A stretch of DNA of 5,363 bases, taken from contig NZ_PIZH01000140.1 in NCBI RefSeq assembly GCF_002835825.1, forward strand, positions 1-5,363, in the 5' to 3' direction. Origin of the DNA: Methanoregula sp. (GTDB taxonomy: Archaea > Halobacteriota > Methanomicrobia > Methanomicrobiales > Methanospirillaceae). The notes below the pieces were generated by a model that was not told the origin of the DNA, made no database searches, and saw only the letters and a list, made by a program, of their open reading frames with translations. The position numbers were made by a program, and so were the translations under genes. Positions 1,513 to 5,042 of the stretch are shown here, piece after piece (the stretch's first letter is position 1; each line of letters starts with the position of its first letter).

Positions 1513-1543
1513 TGACAGAATATCCAAGTGGGTGAGAATCATA

Positions 1544-1604
1544 GGAGGATGGGAGGATGTTCATCAGAACATCTTTGATGAACGAAGCCCCGGGAGCGTT
1601 ATAA
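1544..1604 (+). other. Two mutually exclusive hairpins with a 15-codon micro-ORF
   Basis: GATGTTC (1556-1562) pairs with GAACATC (1567-1573), and TTCATCA (1560-1566) pairs with TGATGAA (1576-1582). Both stems have seven base pairs and they share bases, so only one can form at a time. On the plus strand an ATG at 1557 is preceded by GGAGG at 1544-1548 (eight-base spacing) and opens a 15-codon frame ending in TAA at 1602-1604. No plus-strand gene follows, so an attenuator role has no obvious target. The hairpins could also act in the 3' region of the minus-strand RPA operon, although they lie beyond its T-run. Function unknown. Confidence 0.25.
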
Positions 1605-2261: not shown

Positions 2262-3520
2262 GAGGGTGCCCCCCCGGCACGATTCAGTAAAGCGGTATGG
2301 TCCCCCGTGCTGAACGCAACCTTCTCGCACTTGTTGACCAGCAGGCGGCCATCGATCTCGCGGCCATGGCAGGTGATGTACCGGCCGAGCACGGCGTCCC
2401 GCATCTGGAGGAAGACCTCGTCCATCCCGAGCGGGTTGTTCTCCGCGATCTCCTGCGCCTTTGCAAGAGAGATCCCGGTCAGGGCCTCGACAACATCGCG
2501 CTGGATCAGGACATTGTGGGTCTTCTCGCCGTCGTCAAGCCATCCTTTGATCCGAAGGTCGTATACGAACTTCGGCTGGATCTCGTGGACCGGGCAGTAG
2601 TTCTGCCTTGATAAGGCACGGTTGCAGCCCTCCACCGGGCAGCGCTTGATGATACCGGATCCCGGTGCAATGTGGACGATGGCGCCGGTGAAGGCGGCCT
2701 CCCCGCCGCTCACCGCGATCTCGCCTTCCTCCTGAAGGATGGTTGCCGCGTTCAGGTTCAGCGAGAGCCGGCCATTGAACTCGTCCACCTGTGCGTAAAA
2801 GATGTTGTACACGGCACCGGGCACGAGTTTTTCCTTGCCCGGCTCCTTCCAGATTACGAACTTGATGGTGCCGGTCTCGTCGCCTAAGAGGCCGGACTGG
2901 AGCATCCGTTCGTGGTTCGCCTCCCACTCCTGCACGAACTTGGCCCGCACCCCGCCAATGCCGGGCCGCAGGTCTTTTATGGGTGTCGGGGTCGGAATGA
3001 GCGACCGGTCCTCCGCGATCTCCTTAATGGTCGTTCCTGAGTGGACCTTGAGGTTCGCTACACCCTTGTACTCGTCCATGACTGCCGACTCGATCCGGTA
3101 CCATGATCCCTCGGCCATGGCAGGGGCATTGGACTTTGCCCAGACAACGAACCGGATCGCGCCGGAGTCGTCGGCGATGATGCCGCTCTGGGCAATTGAC
3201 GCTGAAGCTGGTGCCGAGAGTGCCACGATCTTTCCTTCAATGGTCACCCATTCACCGGGCACTCCTTCGGCGATCTTCTTCTCCTGCGTGCCGCCGCCCG
3301 AGCCACCCGCACCGGAACTTCCACCGGAACCCGGTGCCGGGAGGTTGTACTCCTTTGCGAGTTCGCTCGTCACGCTGCGTTCCGCCTCGGAGGGCTGGAC
3401 ACCGAATTCGTCCACGAGCCGCCGGAGTTTGCCTTCGATCTTCGTCACATCGGGCGTCTGCCCGCCCTGGGCAAATTTTCGGGAGATTCGGTTTGCTGCT
3501 TCGGAATAATCCATTTTCAT
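2258..3520 (-). CDS. Archaeal replication protein A (RPA41/RPA70-like) single-stranded DNA-binding protein with zinc finger
   Basis: A 420-residue protein that coats single-stranded DNA in replication, repair and recombination. Domains in order: a helical N-terminal region (about 1-60); a Gly/Ser/Pro linker (62-78); OB fold 1 (about 86-170, with SGIIADDSGAIRFVVWAK); OB fold 2 (about 185-265, with SGLLGDETGTIKFVIWKEP); and a C-terminal OB fold (about 275-405) with an inserted zinc motif C294-x4-C299-x9-C309-x2-H312. The repeated "G(I/L)(I/L)xDxxGxI(R/K)FV(V/I)W" strands are typical of RPA DNA-binding domains, and the zinc motif matches that of RPA70 DBD-C and archaeal RPA41. The start at 3520 has GGAGA at 3528-3524 upstream; a second ATG two codons later (3514) is also possible. 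The frame extends 31 codons further upstream, but those codons are AT-rich leader sequence. It overlaps the next gene by four bases (ATGA). Confidence 0.92.
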   Translation of the reverse strand: MKMDYSEAANRISRKFAQGGQTPDVTKIEGKLRRLVDEFGVQPSEAERSVTSELAKEYNLPAPGSGGSSGAGGSGGGTQEKKIAEGVPGEWVTIEGKIVALSAPASASIAQSGIIADDSGAIRFVVWAKSNAPAMAEGSWYRIESAVMDEYKGVANLKVHSGTTIKEIAEDRSLIPTPTPIKDLRPGIGGVRAKFVQEWEANHERMLQSGLLGDETGTIKFVIWKEPGKEKLVPGAVYNIFYAQVDEFNGRLSLNLNAATILQEEGEIAVSGGEAAFTGAIVHIAPGSGIIKRCPVEGCNRALSRQNYCPVHEIQPKFVYDLRIKGWLDDGEKTHNVLIQRDVVEALTGISLAKAQEIAENNPLGMDEVFLQMRDAVLGRYITCHGREIDGRLLVNKCEKVAFSTGDHTALLNRAGGAPS

Positions 3521-3523
3521 ACA

Positions 3524-3563
3524 TCTCCAGTTATAAAATTCAGAATGCTGTGCAGATAAGTAT
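3524..3563 (-). promoter_or_regulatory. Probable promoter and ribosome binding site of the RPA operon
   Basis: On the minus strand, ATACTTATC (3563-3555) is a TATA-like element that would place the transcription start near 3533. The leader would be about 13 bases and would contain the Shine-Dalgarno GGAGA (3528-3524). A second AT-rich stretch, AATTTTATAA (3540-3531), is too close to the start codon to be the TATA box of this gene unless a downstream start is used. Confidence 0.4.
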
Positions 3564-3632
3564 GTCACCATGCGTAGTGAAAGTGTTGCTTTGTATCGCA
3601 CTTCCCCCGGCAAAGGAGTCGGGTAGTATCGC

Positions 3633-3644
3633 GAGATTTATCTC
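3633..3644 (+). promoter_or_regulatory. Probable TATA element / palindrome upstream of the DUF1858 gene
   Basis: GAGAT-TT-ATCTC is a perfect inverted repeat with a TATA-like centre (ATTTATCT, 3636-3643). A start about 25 bases downstream would fall near 3665, only six bases before the ATG. That fits the absence of a Shine-Dalgarno and suggests an almost leaderless transcript. The palindrome might also be bound by a dimeric repressor acting on either divergent gene; this is inference. Confidence 0.4.
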
Positions 3645-3670
3645 ACGAAAGAGCTGAACTTAGAGTTACT

Positions 3671-3865
3671 ATGTCTGAGATAACCGCTGACAGCACGATC
3701 TATGAACTCCTCAAGGCAAAGCCTGAGGCAACCGAGGCTCTCTTCAAGTTCGGCATGGGCTGTGTCGGCTGCGCAATCGCCCGCGGCGAAACCATCCGGC
3801 AGGCTGCCGAGGCACACGGCATCCCGCTCCCCGAGCTCCTCAACGCGCTTGGCATAAAAGAGTGA
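3671..3865 (+). CDS. DUF1858 / TIGR03980 hybrid-cluster-protein-associated redox disulfide domain protein
   Basis: A 64-residue single-domain protein, close to the family's normal size. It opens with the usual TADSTIYELL segment (residues 5-14, the "vdemlk"-like opening of this family). It then has the hallmark FGMGCVGCAIARGETI, with C31-x2-C34 in a Gly-rich turn, and an amphipathic helix (QAAEAHGIPLPELLNAL). The CxxC pair is thought to act as a redox-active disulfide or a metal/cluster ligand; the family is often found near hybrid cluster protein genes, but none is visible here. There are no signal or membrane segments, so it is cytoplasmic. It is divergent from the RPA operon and convergent with cbiZ. 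Its last four codons and stop lie inside the first copy of the downstream direct repeat, and the stop sits in a ten-base-pair stem. Confidence 0.9.
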   Translation: MSEITADSTIYELLKAKPEATEALFKFGMGCVGCAIARGETIRQAAEAHGIPLPELLNALGIKE

Positions 3866-3910
3866 GCCCACTCTTTTAGTCGGGCAATAAAATTACCCAA
3901 GCATCAAGGA
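3851..3910 (+). repeat. Sixty-base direct repeat, copy 1
   Basis: This aligns without gaps to 4003-4062, with 49 of 60 bases identical by hand count. It starts at GGCATAAAAGAG, inside the end of the DUF1858 coding sequence (GIKE-stop), and ends in CAAGCATCAAGGA. It contains two stem-loops (3855-3878 and 3882-3898). Several differences fall in loops or leave the stems pairable, as expected if the RNA or DNA fold is kept. Confidence 0.75.
3855..3878 (+). terminator. Stem-loop over the DUF1858 stop codon, probable terminator
   Basis: TAAAAGAGTG (3855-3864) pairs with CACTCTTTTA (3869-3878): ten perfect pairs with loop AGCC. The stop codon TGA (3863-3865) lies at the top of the stem. The 3' arm holds four T, so the hairpin resembles an intrinsic terminator, but the T-run is inside the stem and short. 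It is the first hairpin of the array and may have a stability role instead. Confidence 0.45.
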
Positions 3911-4002
3911 ATAATTGTATTATTCCTCTCAATGAACTCCCGGCGGAGTTCACCATCAAAGAGTGATTGAGATCACTCTTCTCATCGTGCGGTGAACCGC
4001 AC

Positions 4003-4062
4003 GACATAAAAGAGTCAACCCACTCTTTACGTCGGGCCAAACAATCGCCCAAGCATAAAGGA
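4003..4062 (+). repeat. Sixty-base direct repeat, copy 2
   Basis: Partner of 3851-3910 at a 152-base offset. It keeps the AAAGAGT hairpin, the TCGGGC...CCC hairpin and the CCAAGCAT linker. Where copy 1 encodes GIKE-stop, copy 2 has the same ATAAAAGAG but TCA instead of the stop and lies outside any recognised gene. Beyond the 60 bases the copies diverge into different hairpins (AGGAATAAT in copy 1, GAGG/CCTC in copy 2). Confidence 0.75.
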
Positions 4063-4085
4063 GGAAGGCCTCTTTTTCATTGGGC

Positions 4086-4110
4086 AAAAGAATCCCTTAT
4101 GCAAAAGGGA
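4086..4110 (-). terminator. Terminator of the nrdD-cbiZ operon
   Basis: Read on the minus strand, TCCCTT (4110-4105) pairs with AAGGGA (4098-4093) across a six-base loop. It is followed directly by TTCTTTT (4092-4086), a classic hairpin plus T-tract about 40 bases after the cbiZ stop. It is the last member of the stem-loop array. In the opposite direction, plus-strand T-runs at 4125-4142 could stop readthrough from the DUF1858 side. Confidence 0.5.
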
Positions 4111-4151
4111 CCAAACAAACTGCGTTTTTCTTTTCCGTTTTTAAAAGGTGA

Positions 4152-5042
4152 TTATTGTTTCTGCGTCTGCTGTTCTGCGTACTGCATCAGCTCTTCGCGT
4201 GAGGCATTCGGGAATTTTCTGAAATAGGTGGCAACAGCCGGCTCGTGCAGGAGCGTGCAGGCAGCACAGTTCCAGACCTTTCCCCCGCCCGAACTTGTCA
4301 CCCACTGCCCGAGACGTTCGTCTTTGCACGGGTAGAACGGGCAGTAACAGAAGGCGCAGGACTGCCCTGCGAAATGGCAGGGGTAATACGGGCATTCCTT
4401 ACCGGGTGTCCACTCCGCCCAGTGGCCGCCTTGGAACCGGCTGTAGACGAAGAAGGCCGGGCGGCTGGACTGCGTGCCGGTGTCATGCCTTTGGAGAGCC
4501 TCGGGGACCCCGTGGAGGACGGCCTCCCGGACCCGCAGGCCGGCCGGCGTGATGCGGCCGGCAAACCGGTGGAAGGTCTCACCTTCCGAGGCTGCGATAA
4601 CGGCATCGGTGGGCGTGCCGGTTGCCGGGAGGTCGAGCCCGAGCAGCGCCTCGGCCTTTGCCTCGGTCGCGACCATGATGGTCTCGAGCAGGGCAGCGTC
4701 CTCCATCCCTTCGCTGCTGCAGATGATGATGTTGATCGTGCCGGCCGTTGACGGGGGCTCCCGCCGGGTCCCGGCTGTAACAAAGACCGTTATGAAATCG
4801 TACTGGAGGATGCAGGCCTGCTGCACCGGGACAGAAGTCAGGAGGCCGAAGAGATCGGATCCAATCCCCTCTGCGGCAGCGACCCGCTCGATCTCTTTTT
4901 CCGGATCATCATGGTGCCAGTCTTGAGGGACGGTATGGTTGATGAGGGAAGAGACCGAACGGATGCCCCCGAGAATCCCGGTGCTGGCGGCGCGGAACGA
5001 CCCGCGGATAAAAAGCGTGGATTTACCGAGGTAATATCTCAT
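4152..5042 (-). CDS. cbiZ: Adenosylcobinamide amidohydrolase CbiZ with C-terminal cysteine-rich domain
   Basis: A 296-residue protein. The CbiZ part (about 5-190) has STLFIRGSFRAASTGILGGI near the start and GTINIIICSSEGMEDAALLETIMVATEAK in the middle (100-130), the conserved core of the family. Its reaction cleaves the aminopropanol tail of adenosylcobinamide to give adenosylcobyric acid, which lets archaea salvage incomplete corrinoids for B12-type cofactors. The C-terminal part (about 195-280) is a cysteine-rich small domain (PF04071 type) with eight Cys: C217, C222, C229, C232, C234, C239, C259 and C262. It probably binds zinc or an iron-sulfur cluster. The frame runs 39 codons further upstream, but the ATG at 5042-5040 overlaps the upstream stop as ATGA and gives the normal family N-terminus. 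There is no Shine-Dalgarno, so translation is likely coupled to nrdD. Confidence 0.9.
   Translation of the reverse strand: MRYYLGKSTLFIRGSFRAASTGILGGIRSVSSLINHTVPQDWHHDDPEKEIERVAAAEGIGSDLFGLLTSVPVQQACILQYDFITVFVTAGTRREPPSTAGTINIIICSSEGMEDAALLETIMVATEAKAEALLGLDLPATGTPTDAVIAASEGETFHRFAGRITPAGLRVREAVLHGVPEALQRHDTGTQSSRPAFFVYSRFQGGHWAEWTPGKECPYYPCHFAGQSCAFCYCPFYPCKDERLGQWVTSSGGGKVWNCAACTLLHEPAVATYFRKFPNASREELMQYAEQQTQKQ

Follow-up and report, generated by a model that had tools for sequence, protein, structure and literature searches.

Short palindromic repeats of the REP/BIME type are often located downstream of coding regions, occur in tandem clusters together with flanking DNA, and plausibly act as RNA, and they include the super-families GTAG and CGTC (passages of PMC3733652). 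Archaeal transcription termination uses U-rich tracts for which a hairpin is not required, and Term-seq in three archaea is described as recovering U-rich ends with no hairpin before them (passages of PMC7515710); a single hairpin in Haloferax caused termination of 59% of reporter transcripts (a passage of PMC7237163).

The array described here, at positions 3855 to 4110 of the window (the whole stretch of DNA that was analyzed, 5,363 nt), is a variant of the palindromic-repeat kind and consists of real, organized, tandem, gene-end-derived two-hairpin units. It shares with REP/BIME sequences, as those passages describe them, the short palindromes, the location downstream of a coding region, the tandem clustering with flanking DNA, and a plausible action as RNA. 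It differs from them in that 3855 to 4110 contains no GTAG, CTAC, or GACG and a single stray CGTC (4030), in that its unit is not dispersed (a 45-mer from the first unit, with up to 3 mismatches allowed, had one occurrence in the window's genome), and in that its units carry a version of the end of the adjacent gene. No Y1 transposase (PF01797) was found in this genome (2.6 Mb in 814 contigs, 90% complete), and membership in REP/BIME was rejected, as tetranucleotide tag, dispersed copies, and Y1 transposase were all absent. Consecutive archaeal terminators and alternative 3' untranslated regions likewise provide a single gene with several potential 3' ends, but those signals are U-rich tracts without a required hairpin (passages of PMC7515710 and PMC7237163). 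Palindromic repeats also accumulate in the organelle DNA of green algae, where they are not known to derive from a gene 3' end.

A CRISPR array was rejected, since the units are diverged, the sequences between the first hairpins of successive units are palindromes and not unrelated spacers, and Tandem Repeats Finder returned 0 rows for the array, even at score 30, because the units are too diverged. An Rfam search of 3500 to 4300 at a relaxed threshold gave nothing credible (best match, 14 bits, E = 1.4, against a gathering threshold of 88.5). The original prediction had offered four readings; the palindromic repeat family came closest. A cassette of tandem terminators of the bacterial type did not hold up, as no GC-rich stem with a T run behind it was found between 3600 and 4300 (0.9 expected). 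No description of the array, or of the dispersed repeat reported below as family 2, was found among the titles retrieved from one open-access library.

Two-hairpin units at the end of the DUF1858 gene

The array lies between two convergent genes. The upstream gene (3671 to 3865, + strand) encodes 64 amino acids and was annotated from its ORF as a DUF1858 protein, a hybrid-cluster-protein-associated redox disulfide domain (PF08984, E = 7.4e-19; TIGR03980, E = 1.9e-21). The opposing CbiZ gene (4152 to 5042, - strand; start codon picked by the authors in an open frame that extends further) encodes an adenosylcobinamide amidohydrolase with a C-terminal Cys-rich domain (PF01955, E = 4.3e-35; PF04071, E = 3.2e-26). 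Its nearest named records are Methanoregula MAGs, in keeping with a Methanoregula-like archaeon as host. A relative of CbiZ was encoded in 57 of 60 genomes (the window's genome counted), and among 66 loci that matched CbiZ, counting duplicates, 64 also had DUF1858 on the opposite strand. The long gap adjoining a methyltransferase gene in the window holds a perfect 21-bp inverted repeat (1388 to 1408 and 1488 to 1508, 79 nt between the arms) that looks like a small mobile element.

Folding of 3850 to 4115 was compared with that of dinucleotide shuffles. The + strand folded at -97.8 kcal/mol (shuffle mean, -58.7; z = -8.36) and the - strand at -116.9 kcal/mol (shuffle mean, -71.5; z = -9.56); on neither strand did any of 200 shuffles reach so low an energy. 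Six nonoverlapping perfect stems of ≥7 bp (7 to 10 bp) were found in 3855 to 4110 (shuffle mean, 0.09; 0 of 1,000 shuffles reached 6), as were seven of ≥6 bp (shuffle mean, 0.39; 0 of 1,000 reached 7); the maximum in any other part of the window was 2 per 256 bp. The original prediction of a hairpin-rich gap, which had been staked on folding better than shuffled sequence, was thus borne out on both strands and by the stem count. The three stems that it had described with AAGAGT/ACTCTT arms are at 3855 to 3878, 3959 to 3980, and 4009 to 4028. Its count of ten hairpins captured a long series, but the + strand optimum has 9 hairpin loops, and the region is best described as five units of two hairpins. 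That nearly every base belongs to a hairpin was an overstatement, with 62% of array bases paired and 79% inside local hairpins when loops are included.

The five tandem units of about 50 bp start at 3853, 3902, 3954, 4005, and 4054 on the + strand, and this regular series agrees with the organized element that had been proposed. Each contains a predicted hairpin A, which holds a gene-end stretch in its 5' half, followed by a predicted hairpin B. Every unit opens with ATHAARGARTRA, which reads Ile-Lys-Glu-stop and is exact in units U1, U2, and U3 and has one mismatch in U4 and U5. When both strands of the window were searched for ATHAARGARTRA with ≤1 mismatch, 5 matches were found, all on the + strand within the array and spaced 49, 52, 51, and 49 nt apart (0.14 expected in the window; maximum of 2 in 200 shuffles). 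All differences among the exact versions are synonymous (ATA/ATC, AAA/AAG, GAG/GAA, and TGA/TAA), and all five units are in register with the last codons of the gene at ≤1 mismatch to the degenerate pattern, as tandem duplication of a gene 3' end predicts. That the unit openings are versions of the last DUF1858 codons, with the first unit being the gene's end, had been missed; the recurrence of CAT had been recorded correctly, and CAT recurs because it opens each unit.

U1 (3853 to 3901) is the DUF1858 gene's own end and comprises A1 (3855 to 3878, 10 bp) and an imperfect B1 (3882 to 3898). The last codons of the gene, ATA AAA GAG TGA (stop codon, 3863 to 3865), form the 5' arm of A1; the element, which had been placed between the two genes, begins inside the DUF1858 gene. 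U2 (3902 to 3953) contains A2 (3907 to 3927, 9 bp) and B2 (3933 to 3952, 8 bp). U3 (3954 to 4004) opens with ATC AAA GAG TGA and contains A3 (3959 to 3980, 9 bp) and B3 (3985 to 4004, 9 bp). U4 (4005 to 4053), in which the opening is a gene-end version with the stop lost (TCA), contains A4 (4009 to 4028, 7 bp) and B4 (4034 to 4050, 4 bp). U5 (4054 to 4110) is the most degenerate, with A5 at about 4057 to 4076 and a last hairpin at 4093 to 4110 (6 bp). Six of the stems are strong, and B1, B4, A5, and the last hairpin are weak or imperfect. The stems had been called unrelated in sequence; perfect stems of 8 to 10 bp are present, but not all are unrelated, given the register of the five units. 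A MAFFT alignment of the units yielded no consensus structure because the stems vary in length, so the covariance model built from it (R1) contained no pairs and was discarded.

Clusters this dense were rare in the sequence sampled (400 kb of a relative, G033; 134 kb of the window's genome; 127 kb of Methanoregula loci; and 146 kb of other Methanomicrobiales loci). Only two stretches had ≥4 perfect stems of ≥7 bp per 266 bp, namely, another array of G033 (L080) and the homologue of the window's array in a second relative, G030 (L046). The homologous array of G033 (L078, inside the 400-kb sample) had fewer than 4 such stems in 266 bp, and hairpin density was thus not retained in G033. A general hairpin excess across the sampled genomes was mild: compared with one shuffle, stems of ≥7 bp numbered 300 versus 171 in G033 and 74 versus 68 in the sample of the window's genome, and stems of ≥9 bp numbered 37 versus 12 and 4 versus 3, respectively.

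Homologous arrays and gene-end hairpins in relatives

A search of 60 genomes (the window's included) with the array DNA, which is blind to strongly diverged arrays, gave matches in 7 at E ≤ 0.01, and arrays were present only in the window's genome, G033 (E = 5.8e-53), and G030 (E = 2.6e-31). The matches in the other four genomes (G013, G035, G028, and G018) were 22 to 37 nt long and were rejected as arrays, and nothing besides the array itself fell below E = 1 in the window's genome. Presence in 3 of 60 genomes indicates that the array is dispensable. On the DUF1858 strand, both homologous arrays folded below their shuffles (z = -7.8 for G030 and -5.0 for G033).

In both relatives, the DUF1858 gene ends in ATC AAG GAA TAA, which is the sequence that opens U2 in the window; by the authors' division into units, the window's array has one unit more than either, U1 at the gene end. 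A 51-nt stretch that holds U1 (3852 to 3902) is identical to part of the G030 array (L010:1597-1647). The next longest run shared with G030 is 25 nt (the same repeat), followed by one of 16 nt; the aligned part of the two arrays differs at 27 of 141 ungapped sites, and the CbiZ proteins of the two genomes are about 86% identical. The 51-nt identity is likely to reflect recent exchange or copying of a unit.

Pairing was largely kept in both relatives, contrary to the absence of conserved pairing that would have counted against the original prediction, and some pairs were broken. The window and G033 differed at 5 of 88 stem sites and 13 of 53 nonstem sites, and the window and G030 differed at 11 of 88 and 16 of 53. 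Between G033 and G030, the differences (15 of 88 stem and 9 of 53 nonstem sites) were not slower in stems. Three pairs are broken in U3 of G033 and one in U4 of G030, which also carries a different hairpin where B3 would be; B2 is perfect in all three species, with a differing loop. No stem pair changed on both sides among the three orthologous arrays. Two G033 changes produce pairs that read G-U in the + strand, where the - strand would have A-C, and these two retained pairs hint weakly at the + transcript as the conserved one. A structured RNA is possible, since stems change less than the rest in the comparison with G033.

Pairing of the gene end with downstream sequence was assessed in 50 distinct orthologous DUF1858 gene ends, of which 34 were followed by a gap of <45 bp and 16 by a gap of ≥45 bp. 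Among the 16 with long gaps, the mean stem between the gene's tail and the sequence downstream was 5.44 bp, compared with 4.05 bp for mispaired combinations (0 of 2,000 permutations as good), with some of these ends pairing over just 2 to 4 bp. The 34 with short gaps had no excess pairing (3.35 versus 3.36 bp; 1,089 of 2,000 permutations). The arms of these gene-end hairpins vary by species (for example, TAAAAGAGTG, AAAAGAAT, and GAGAAC); as the arms differ yet pair, the hairpin has been retained through changes in its sequence.

The best downstream copy of the window's DUF1858 gene end matches 13 of its last 15 bases, and two further copies match 11 to 12. For the 324 gene ends within the 400 kb of G033, no downstream copy reached 13 of 15, and the best was 12; there were 4 copies at 12 of 15 (1.5 expected from mispaired controls) and 19 at 11 of 15 (10.5 expected). 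Gene-end duplication as a general habit was not supported by this mild excess, and among the sampled loci, repetition this strong is peculiar to the one described here. At three other loci (L024, L047, and L058), a former gene end appears, on visual inspection, to lie behind the present one.

A dispersed twin-hairpin repeat in Methanomicrobiales

The second G033 array (L080:1756-2068) led to a dispersed repeat of Methanomicrobiales, here called family 2, which reaches dozens of copies in some genomes of Methanoregula and of other members of the order, with twin hairpins, a GA/GA internal loop in the first hairpin, and AUCA-type loops (further examples include L131:1501-1553, L174, L180, and L225). 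A scan of the fetched loci for the order stem, GA, stem, loop, stem, GA, stem returned 61 distinct candidates, 44 of them with GAAG no more than 5 bases after and 29 with the loop ATCA. A covariance model (R2) was built from 10 of 38 retained units, 2 of the 10 having shifted ends. In a selection of 55 loci, some of which overlap, it matched 120 times at E ≤ 1e-4. The 99 distinct rows, in an alignment fitted to the model, which favors covariation, had 95.9% standard pairs (77.5% shuffled) and both-sided changes in 16 of 18 pairs (11.1 shuffled) and in 297 cells (83 shuffled), a signal that was lost when partners were slid. A second set, likewise fitted to the model, of 34 matches (26 distinct) at 12 loci from other genera or families had 96.0% standard pairs and both-sided changes in 15 of 18. 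The consensus on the RNA strand is tccGAnnggTcaTCAgAccnngAgganGAGAAGAacnCntcaGngtTCTTCGA, in which the GA steps that face each other may form tandem sheared G-A pairs.

At E ≤ 0.01, family 2 was present in 43 of 90 genomes (the window's included) and was not found in the other 47, among them 13 of the 39 of the same genus. With 64 candidate stretches scored per genome, counts were at least 40 in 8 genomes and reached at least 68. The repeat forms tandem arrays with periods of 47 to 70 bp. In a genome from another family of the order (G082), L243:538-1554 is a 1-kb satellite in which a 47-bp twin-hairpin unit is repeated 21.7 times at 99% match. Rfam searches gave no match to family 2 (seven loci at the gathering threshold and one locus at E ≤ 5); the family is apparently undescribed and is probably of wider interest than the array itself. 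Its 111 distinct ORF settings comprised 32 tandem, 28 convergent, and 13 divergent positions, 20 inside ORFs of ≥130 amino acids (some probably spurious), and 18 without flanks, and this mixture did not support a strictly 3'-untranslated-region element. As in the window's array, a long ORF at L091:14657-14711 has its stop codon within the second-hairpin loop of a family-2 element on the antisense strand; a few other overlaps of stop codons with family 2, in putative ORFs, resemble it.

Origin and possible function of the array

The explanation that we consider best, and narrowly probable as a whole, is that the array arose through repeated duplication of the DUF1858 3' end and would work as a structured 3' barrier to read-through and decay for both convergent transcripts. 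An origin by serial duplication is well supported. Repeated duplication of the 3' end would have produced the five two-hairpin units, with newer units becoming the gene end and older ends pushed downstream, as suggested by U2, whose sequence ends the gene in both G033 and G030 but which sits behind U1 here. Units may also have been exchanged between lineages, given the 51 nucleotides identical between U1 and the G030 unit. As a 3' structure serving both genes, a role proposed from sequence, the region would limit read-through and decay on both sides.

A tentative alternative is that the array belongs to family 2 as a local, diverged copy, antisense to DUF1858, in which a hairpin arm became the last codons of the gene. 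On the - strand, U3 was matched by R2 (22.4 bits, 3956 to 4002, E = 5e-5) and by a further model, R3 (22.0 bits, 3956 to 4004, E = 4e-5), these E values being rough and computed for the 5.4-kb window. An unfiltered scan of 57 kb from 13 further loci, including 10 DUF1858-CbiZ loci, gave 5 matches at E ≤ 1, of which 4 fell in DUF1858 gene-end hairpins, all antisense to DUF1858 (two units of L010, one of L009, and the gene end of L058). Family 2, too, forms tandem arrays (periods of 47 to 70 bp). U3, however, was the only one of the five units with a significant match; R3 gave 8.0 bits on U2 (E = 0.28), and U1, U4, and U5 were unmatched at E ≤ 1. In the R2 and R3 alignments, U3 resembles family 2 in its two adjacent hairpins and tandem arrangement but lacks the GA/GA internal loop, the lower stem, and the AUCA loops. 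Its match is mainly one purine-rich hairpin, so convergence is possible, and an Ile-Lys-Glu-stop gene end also occurs in relatives without any array. With four of five units below significance and no GA/GA loop in U3, a link between array and family 2 is no more than tentative. Weak matches elsewhere in the window (1533 to 1578, +, R3, 14.4 bits, with R2 giving 16.2 bits at 1523 to 1578; and 1623 to 1655, -, R3, 12.8 bits) are possible degenerate family-2 copies.

A speculative extension is that Methanomicrobiales carry an unrecognized, tandem-prone class of twin-hairpin RNA, with dozens in some genomes, and that one of these here became the end of a protein gene, its arm encoding the last codons and stop, with each new unit displacing the old end downstream to leave a fossil record of gene ends. 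Serial duplication at this locus would illustrate how gene ends and their 3' structures can be renewed in a simple way: a stop-codon hairpin is duplicated, the gene then ends in the new copy, and the former ends survive as hairpins. The array has also led to a strongly covarying methanogen repeat without an Rfam match, which opens direct tests of 3' structures in archaea and of dispersed repeats and how they move.

It is rather unlikely, but consistent with several observations, that the palindromes are a mutational by-product without function, formed as replication slippage and hairpin template switching perfected inverted repeats in a noncoding gap. The perfection of B2 in three species despite loop differences, the additional unit in the window by the authors' division, and the lack of an array in 57 of 60 genomes speak for such a process. 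The conservation of stems relative to G033 (5 of 88 versus 13 of 53) and the species-specific pairing of coding tails suggest selection instead, although template switching can mimic both.

Serial duplication with a structured 3' barrier also differs from a strict bidirectional terminator cassette in which every hairpin ends transcripts, a reading that we regard as improbable. The position between convergent genes, the T4 and T5 in the 3' arms of the A hairpins of U1 and U5, and the Haloferax hairpin with 59% termination in a reporter (a passage of PMC7237163) are compatible with a cassette, but the region contains 0 sites with a hairpin plus a T run, and the U-rich Term-seq ends of three archaea are described as lacking preceding hairpins (passages of PMC7515710). 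T runs of 5 occur on the + strand at 4073 (the only one inside the array), 4125, and 4138 and nowhere on the - strand of the array. The T-rich tract behind the array (4125 to 4142, +, T runs of 5, 4, and 5) would be the likelier site for the + transcript to end in the archaeal manner.

An independent structured noncoding RNA from the gap, most plausibly on the - strand, is very improbable, since there is no credible Rfam match and the array is found in just 3 of 60 genomes, despite the very stable predicted folds of the two strands (the - strand having the lower energy) and a TTTAWA-type box placed where a - strand promoter could sit, which raised the odds slightly. That TATA-like box, on the - strand at 4145 and about 35 nt beyond the end of the array, lies within a T-rich/A-rich stretch and may be a chance occurrence.
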